A DNA stretch of 38,580 nucleotides. Source: Pseudomonadota bacterium (GTDB taxonomy: Bacteria > Myxococcota_A > Polyangia > Polyangiales > JAKSBK01). Shown here piece after piece: positions 11,582-36,864 of the stretch. Within the stretch, counting starts at the first letter, position 1; every line of letters starts with the position of its first letter. The DNA lies in contig JAKSBK010000382.1 of assembly GCA_022361155.1 (NCBI GenBank), positions 1 through 38,580 on the forward strand, read 5' to 3'. A program made the translations under genes and the position numbers. The notes beneath the pieces were generated by a model. The model saw nothing but the letters and a program-made list of their open reading frames with translations, did not search any database and was not told the DNA's origin.

Positions 11582-11739
11582 AGGCGTCGGGTCAAAATAA
11601 CATCGCCACTTCGATTTCGATCCATCCCGTCCAGCGGCGTTGCACCGCCTCCGAATACAGGGAGTATTCGCGCGACAGCGCGCCTTGCCGGCCGGGAGCC
11701 TCAAAGCCGACCTGGAGATGTTATTTTGACCCGACGCCT
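11582..11739. repeat. MITE-like inverted-repeat element, copy A
   Basis: Perfect 23-bp inverted arms lie at 11582-11604 (starts AGGCGTCGGGTC, ends AATAACATC) and 11717-11739, enclosing 112 bp. The interior is itself structured: CGAATAC-AGGGA-GTATTCG (11652-11670), GGCG-TTGCAC-CGCC and GCGCG-ACAG-CGCGC hairpins. Read on the minus strand the core contains the boxes GGCAAGGCG, TATTCG and AACGCCG, with 23 and 10 bases between them. The same boxes recur with 24- and 10-base spacings in copy B at 36699-36864, but the arms of the two copies are different. There is no transposase in the window. The element ends 28 bp before the arsS start codon and would lie in or beside its leader. Confidence 0.75.
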
Positions 11740-36698: not shown

Positions 36699-36864
36699 CT
36701 AGTGCCTCGCCACAGGAATCCTGGTTGGTTGGGGCCTGCAGTGGGGCTCGCTGGCAAGGCGGACCGACGAAGGACATGCAGCGCATATTCGAGGAGGTCC
36801 CAACGCCGCCAGCGGGCGCCAGGGCTGGGGCCAAACGATCAGGATTCCTGTGGCGAGGCACTAG
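36699..36864. repeat. MITE-like inverted-repeat element, copy B
   Basis: Perfect 25-bp inverted arms lie at 36699-36723 (starts CTAGTGCCTCGC, ends GGAATCCTG) and 36840-36864, enclosing 116 bp. On the plus strand the core has GGCAAGGCG, then 24 bases, TATTCG, then 10 bases, AACGCCG. These are the boxes and nearly the spacing of copy A (minus strand there). The arms are unlike those of copy A. The element lies between the divergent PilZ and TPR-like genes and ends 19 bp before the GTG of the latter. No open reading frame for a transposase is present. Confidence 0.75.

Follow-up and report, generated by a model that had tools for sequence, protein, structure and literature searches.

Elements A and B, two long inverted repeats in a stretch of 38,580 nucleotides (the window), are members of two different high-copy families in one genome, and these belong to a superfamily of small nonautonomous, MITE-like transposons, mostly 155 to 185 bp in length. 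MITEs as such are well known, are usually defined by their ends, and commonly count as empty; the present superfamily differs in a core that stays constant over families and phyla. The reading that we prefer, at a probability of roughly 55%, is that the ends of these elements are tied to transposases acting in trans and that the hairpin between them is kept as a folded single strand. In its fuller form, which we place a little below an even chance, a hitherto undescribed structured RNA of about 100 nucleotides would be carried across phyla by mini-transposons, with ends interchangeable between transposase families, and it is the RNA, not the ends, that would persist. If this is true, a core that outlives its ends, pairs on one strand, and occurs in many phyla would make small transposons vehicles of functional structured nucleic acid. 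The analysis also yields a covariance model and a simple strand test. A limited search of open-access papers found no description of the core; similar palindromes may occur in other genomes, and an earlier description is possible.

The perfect 23-base inverted repeats of A that the earlier note had reported (11582-11604 and 11717-11739, around 112 bases) were confirmed from the sequence, and such repeats with a spacer of up to 300 bases are expected by chance about 2e-6 times in the window. In its natural extent A runs from 11583 to 11738, which corrects those boundaries and leaves a TAA target duplication outside the element (Table 1). The three boxes described on the minus strand of A (GGCAAGGCG, TATTCG, and AACGCCG, at spacings of 23 and 10) were likewise recovered, and B holds the same boxes at spacings of 24 and 10. 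The computed folds have energies of -100.4 kcal/mol for A (z = -10.4 versus shuffled sequences) and -100.6 kcal/mol for B (z = -9.4). Model R1 matches A at 11713-11611 (70.1 bits; E = 3e-15) and B at 36729-36832 (68.8 bits; E = 6.3e-15), both elements being among the model's own 23 sequences. A is flanked by two plus-strand genes, one for an FAD oxidoreductase and one of the radical SAM/DUF3641 type, and B is situated between divergent PilZ and TPR genes.

Table 1. Features of elements A and B in the window
Feature	Positions	Strand	Basis or remark
Left target duplication of A, TAA	11580..11582	.	Sequence; family duplications 26/49 vs 5.6 expected
Element A, 156-bp MITE, in the direction of its core	11583..11738	-	Family of about 40 genome places
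Terminal inverted repeat of A, GGCGTCGGGTCAAAATAACATC	11583..11604	+	Sequence; 14/22 bases as in the ISAzo13 end of L470
Conserved core of A, GGCAAGGCG to AACGCCG	11635..11689	-	R1 model match
Second terminal inverted repeat of A, perfect complement of the first	11717..11738	-	Sequence
Right target duplication of A, TAA	11739..11741	.	Sequence
Element B including CTAG ends, 158 bp between both CTAG	36699..36864	+	Family of about 40 places including fragments
Terminal inverted repeat of B, TGCCTCGCCACAGGAATCCTG, after CTAG at 36699-36702	36703..36723	+	Sequence
Conserved core of B, GGCAAGGCG to AACGCCG	36753..36808	+	R1 model match
Second terminal inverted repeat of B, followed by CTAG at 36861-36864	36840..36860	-	Sequence

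The source assembly comprises 5.4 Mb in 608 contigs. DNA searches in which the best 40 candidates were scored gave about 40 A-like and about 40 B-like places, many of the latter being fragments, and the core model found at least 150 copies of the core, nearly all with E values below 0.001. This genome-wide search for further copies, which had been proposed earlier, thus returned tens of copies per arm type. The ends are GGCGTCGGGTCAAAATAACAT in family A, CTAGTGCCTCGCCACAGGAATCCTG in family B, CTAGTACCGCTTGCCAGGG in family C, GGACCCGCCACACAATAACCTG and relatives in family D, and GGGCCCGCGGAAGAATAACTCG in family E; a further family, F, has ends that are family specific in the same way. The supposition that the arms are specific to each copy was wrong, as they are conserved inside each family, and their renewal from the target was rejected on the recurrence of each arm type in tens of copies. 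Nor are the exact boxes and spacings general: the majority of A copies read AGCAAGGCG..CAACACCG, and the core is 18 bases longer in most B copies than in B itself.

Identical 3-base flanks, mostly TAA or TTA, were found in 26 of 49 GG-ended copies versus 5.6 expected from pairing the flanks of different copies, an excess slightly flattered by choosing the register of the end by flank equality; copies read by hand agree with the 3-bp duplications called by script. The complete B copies examined have CTAG at either side, and their duplication length is not readable because the flanks are always CTAG. The copies are thus dispersed with conserved terminal inverted repeats, show 3-bp target-site duplications in the GG-ended families, contain no internal transposase gene, and measure 156 to 184 bp.

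Shortened B copies are numerous in the source genome (L067, L069, L070, L033, L066, and L068); their second end has been rebuilt near CTAG or comes from another CTAG family (C or CTAGTGTCCTG..). The genome looks as if it were a patchwork of nested CTAG-targeting elements. Contigs commonly end inside these elements (e.g., C220, C521, C231, C399, and C391), so the elements are probably a main cause of assembly breaks.

The arms of A and B, described earlier as unrelated, show no similarity beyond that of shuffled sequences (identities of 0.54 to 0.58 versus 0.52), whereas their cores are 0.70 identical (shuffled, 0.58); the arms therefore diverge faster than the core. The arms of D are 0.71 to 0.79 identical to those of B and 0.58 to 0.62 identical to those of A, so that D bridges A and B and the families are connected. 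The earlier argument that a conserved core is not ordinary MITE behavior holds in one respect, since elements with unlike arms share the core, and fails in another: within a family, the recurrence of arm types in tens of copies and the 3-bp duplications of the A type are those of an ordinary MITE. That the folded middle is conserved over phyla and the ends are not suggests that the job of the middle goes beyond jumping.

One way to obtain such a pattern is recombination between families, which would homogenize the core, with new ends arising when copies exchange at the core and one arm is then copied over the other. An acidobacterial genome (G382) contains a chimera, L423, with a left arm of the GG type and a right arm of the CTAG type, and the shortened copies L033, L066, and L068 are B/C hybrids. 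Such chimeras are, however, few and asymmetric, and recombination leaves both the similarity between phyla and the strand asymmetry described below unexplained. As the sole explanation we regard it as very unlikely; it may act beside selection on the folded strand and account for the changes of ends.

Comparison of 23 diverse sequences revealed that the proposed pairs of the core are standard in 88% of cells (31 to 51% when the partners are slid) and that 14 of 21 core pairs have changes at both sides. The covariation score is 0.505, compared with 0.15 for shuffled and 0.06 to 0.10 for slid alignments. Two unpaired segments, AA in GGC-AA-GGC and AAC in C-AAC-GCC, do not vary within this set, in part because the search pattern required them. 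Since inverted repeats pair trivially, a mismatch test that depends on the strand was used: with double-strand symmetry alone, G.T and A.C arm mismatches should be equal on the core-sense strand. With one representative for each 70% identity cluster (22 clusters), that strand has 70 G.T and 14 A.C mismatches, the clusters leaning to G.T and to A.C in a ratio of 20:1, and the outer arms alone have 24 and 2. The ratio is 130:34 with 36 clusters, and the bias has the same sign when all copies are pooled; the coarsest clustering, into 8 clusters and of low power, gives 15:4 (clusters, 5:2). Mutational asymmetry was rejected as the source of the G.T excess on the changes within the elements' own families (C>T, 78; G>A, 77; A>G, 79; T>C, 131). 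Such an excess would arise neither from a cruciform nor from terminal repeats by themselves, and we infer selection on the folding of one strand. The earlier idea of a hairpin under pairing selection is thus supported by covariation and strand asymmetry and accounts for the core better than any other reading.

Among recent changes in the A and the D/E families, G.T is no more than slightly in excess (43:24 and 54:41; 21:16 and 22:25 by distinct sites), which counts against the preferred reading. We read this as selection acting on long-lived transposing lineages, with ordinary copies decaying nearly neutrally. The near-neutral decay of recent copies also fits plain MITE families, in which the palindrome would be kept for end matching by the transposase and a functionless core would be alike by descent or recent spread; the many copies, the duplications, and the family-specific ends are equally in keeping with this. 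Yet terminal repeats that diverge to noise around a middle that does not, compensatory changes over phyla, and a G.T excess confined to one strand all speak against it, and we consider it unlikely.

The selected single strand is most likely RNA, the simplest molecule of one strand, with covarying stems and strand-specific wobble as in a structured RNA. The G.T test is blind to the difference between RNA and single-stranded DNA, and conservation could instead concern DNA exposed at replication forks or during transposition; neither promoter nor terminator was recognized at A, and the core-sense strand of A opposes the direction of both neighboring genes, which is compatible with DNA. DDE transposases work on double-stranded ends. 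Such enzymes are the likely mobilizers here, and a search of the source genome for an HUH (Y1) transposase gave no match, which makes single-stranded DNA a distinctly improbable reading. No Rfam covariance model matched the core, on which a known RNA family was rejected, and a coding function was rejected on the box-to-box distances, which vary (38, 39, 40, 42, and 57 to 59 bases) without keeping to multiples of three. With a rough gene finder, the genes around copies are convergent in 25 cases, divergent in 10, and tandem in 16 to 13, and 17 of 91 copies lie inside a reading frame; orientation relative to genes is thus weakly biased and points to no particular role.

With respect to mobilization, terminal inverted repeats would be the substrates of transposases supplied in trans. 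The A type, with GG-N10-RAATAAC ends and a 3-bp duplication, is most likely moved by ISAzo13-family DDE transposases. A Verrucomicrobial genome (G386) contains an ISAzo13-family insertion sequence, L470 (PF07592; E = 8.5e-136), of about 1.29 kb with ends GGCGGTGTAAATAAATAACATTTACAA and a TTA duplication, and a MITE of the superfamily in the same genome has ends GGAGGCGTAAATAAATTAAGG, also with a TTA duplication; 16 of 22 end bases are alike between the two. For A and L470, which is from another phylum, the figure is 14 of 22, and the signature GG-N10-RAATAAC is common to the 3-bp families of several phyla. G386 is the one genome with a matching autonomous ISAzo13 partner. A search for ISAzo13 in the source genome gave no match, so that the transposase serving it would have been lost, is unassembled, or is too diverged.

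The B type, with CTAG-TRCC ends, is probably moved by CTAG-targeting IS630/Tc1-type transposases, an assignment of which we are less sure than of that for the A type. In the source genome, an IS630 gene and a B-like arm (15 of 21 bases) lie about 350 bases apart, and the end of an IS630 element in G383 is CTAGTGCCGTGCCAC compared with CTAGTGCCTCGCCAC in B (9 of the first 12 bases); a complete IS630 element with B-type ends at both sides was not found. The title of the 1991 paper by Tenzen and Ohtsubo, as cited in PMC2170065, gives CTAG as the preferred target of IS630, with duplication of TA. The IS4/IS5 group (PF01609 and PF13586) was rejected as a general mobilizer, as it is absent from a genome with 115 copies.

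Two further loci of the source genome were recorded. At L235 (1408-2829; contig C218), an IS630-family transposase gene stands beside a small LexA-like winged-helix frame, and a B-like arm bounds the locus at one side; within the frame is GACATGCAGCGC..TTCGAGG, similar to the B core GACATGCAGCGCATATTCGAGG, possibly by chance. L239 (120-2300), a 2.2-kb element, has a PF01609 transposase, its long inverted ends start at GTACTAG, and it adjoins a C-family end.

The earlier note had named REP/RAYT-type elements as the main conventional alternative; a Y1 (HUH) transposase would move these. Like REP elements, the present ones are palindromic, intergenic, and strand specific in their fold, and Y1 genes are present in some distant core-bearing genomes. 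However, PF01797 had no matches in the source genome or in G382, G383, and G387 (the last three with 115, 98, and 60 cores), the 3-bp duplications do not fit, and a length of about 156 bp compares with 20 to 40 bp for REPs (PMC3733652); we judge this origin extremely improbable. A closer parallel is offered by bacterial MITEs such as the R0 and R2 repeats of Pseudomonas fluorescens (PMC2718517) and Correia-like elements, which are also short, palindromic, multicopy, and noncoding; their ends match an insertion sequence, and mobilization in trans has been proposed. In those MITEs the family is set by the ends and the middle is said to vary, whereas in the present superfamily the middle is constant. 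The ISAzo13 element L470 (PF07592) shares with the G386 MITEs the end type GG-N10-AAATAAC and the 3-bp TTA duplication, the MITEs differing in having a structured core and no transposase gene. IS630/Tc1-mariner elements have the CTAG preference in common with the B type, and their end similarity to B is short only.

Under selection on the folded strand, ends would change with the transposase or be swapped by recombination, and the central hairpin would be retained for the action of the core-sense strand, folded and single, most likely as RNA. The conserved bulges would then resemble a site where some broadly distributed host factor binds, and the core may be an RNA in complex with a factor that many phyla have in common.

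Beyond the source genome, pattern matches occurred in 23 of 379 genomes of the same phylum, most single matches looking like chance; four of them (G047, G213, G083, and G030) have hairpins in which this core stands between different arms. A scan of 84,980 species genomes gave at least 120 matching stretches; among the 80 loci listed, 51 have at least 20 pairs between the core flanks, a few of these probably being coding sequence matched by chance. Copies of this core between different arms come from about eight named phyla, the hosts listed being Nocardioides, Arachnia, Acidobacteriota, Kiritimatiellae, Lentisphaerota, Verrucomicrobiota, Nitrospirota, Desulfobacteraceae, and Pseudomonadota; with metagenome bins frequent among them, individual taxon assignments may be wrong, and named isolates are included for Nocardioides, Arachnia, Pseudomonas, and Curvibacter. 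The model counts 115 core copies in G382, 98 in G383, 60 in Arachnia, and 57 in G381. A viral or plasmid origin was rejected: the viral collection gave one exact pattern match, and a search of plasmids and phages for a Pseudomonas relative gave none.

Two core types can be distinguished, a short one (A and B) and a long one (Pseudomonadota and some others). In two Pseudomonas species, a long-core relative occupies one shared site and has the same flanks (L142, 6738-6811; L160, 520-592). Its A-rich and T-rich borders would suit a two-way terminator, and it looks domesticated.
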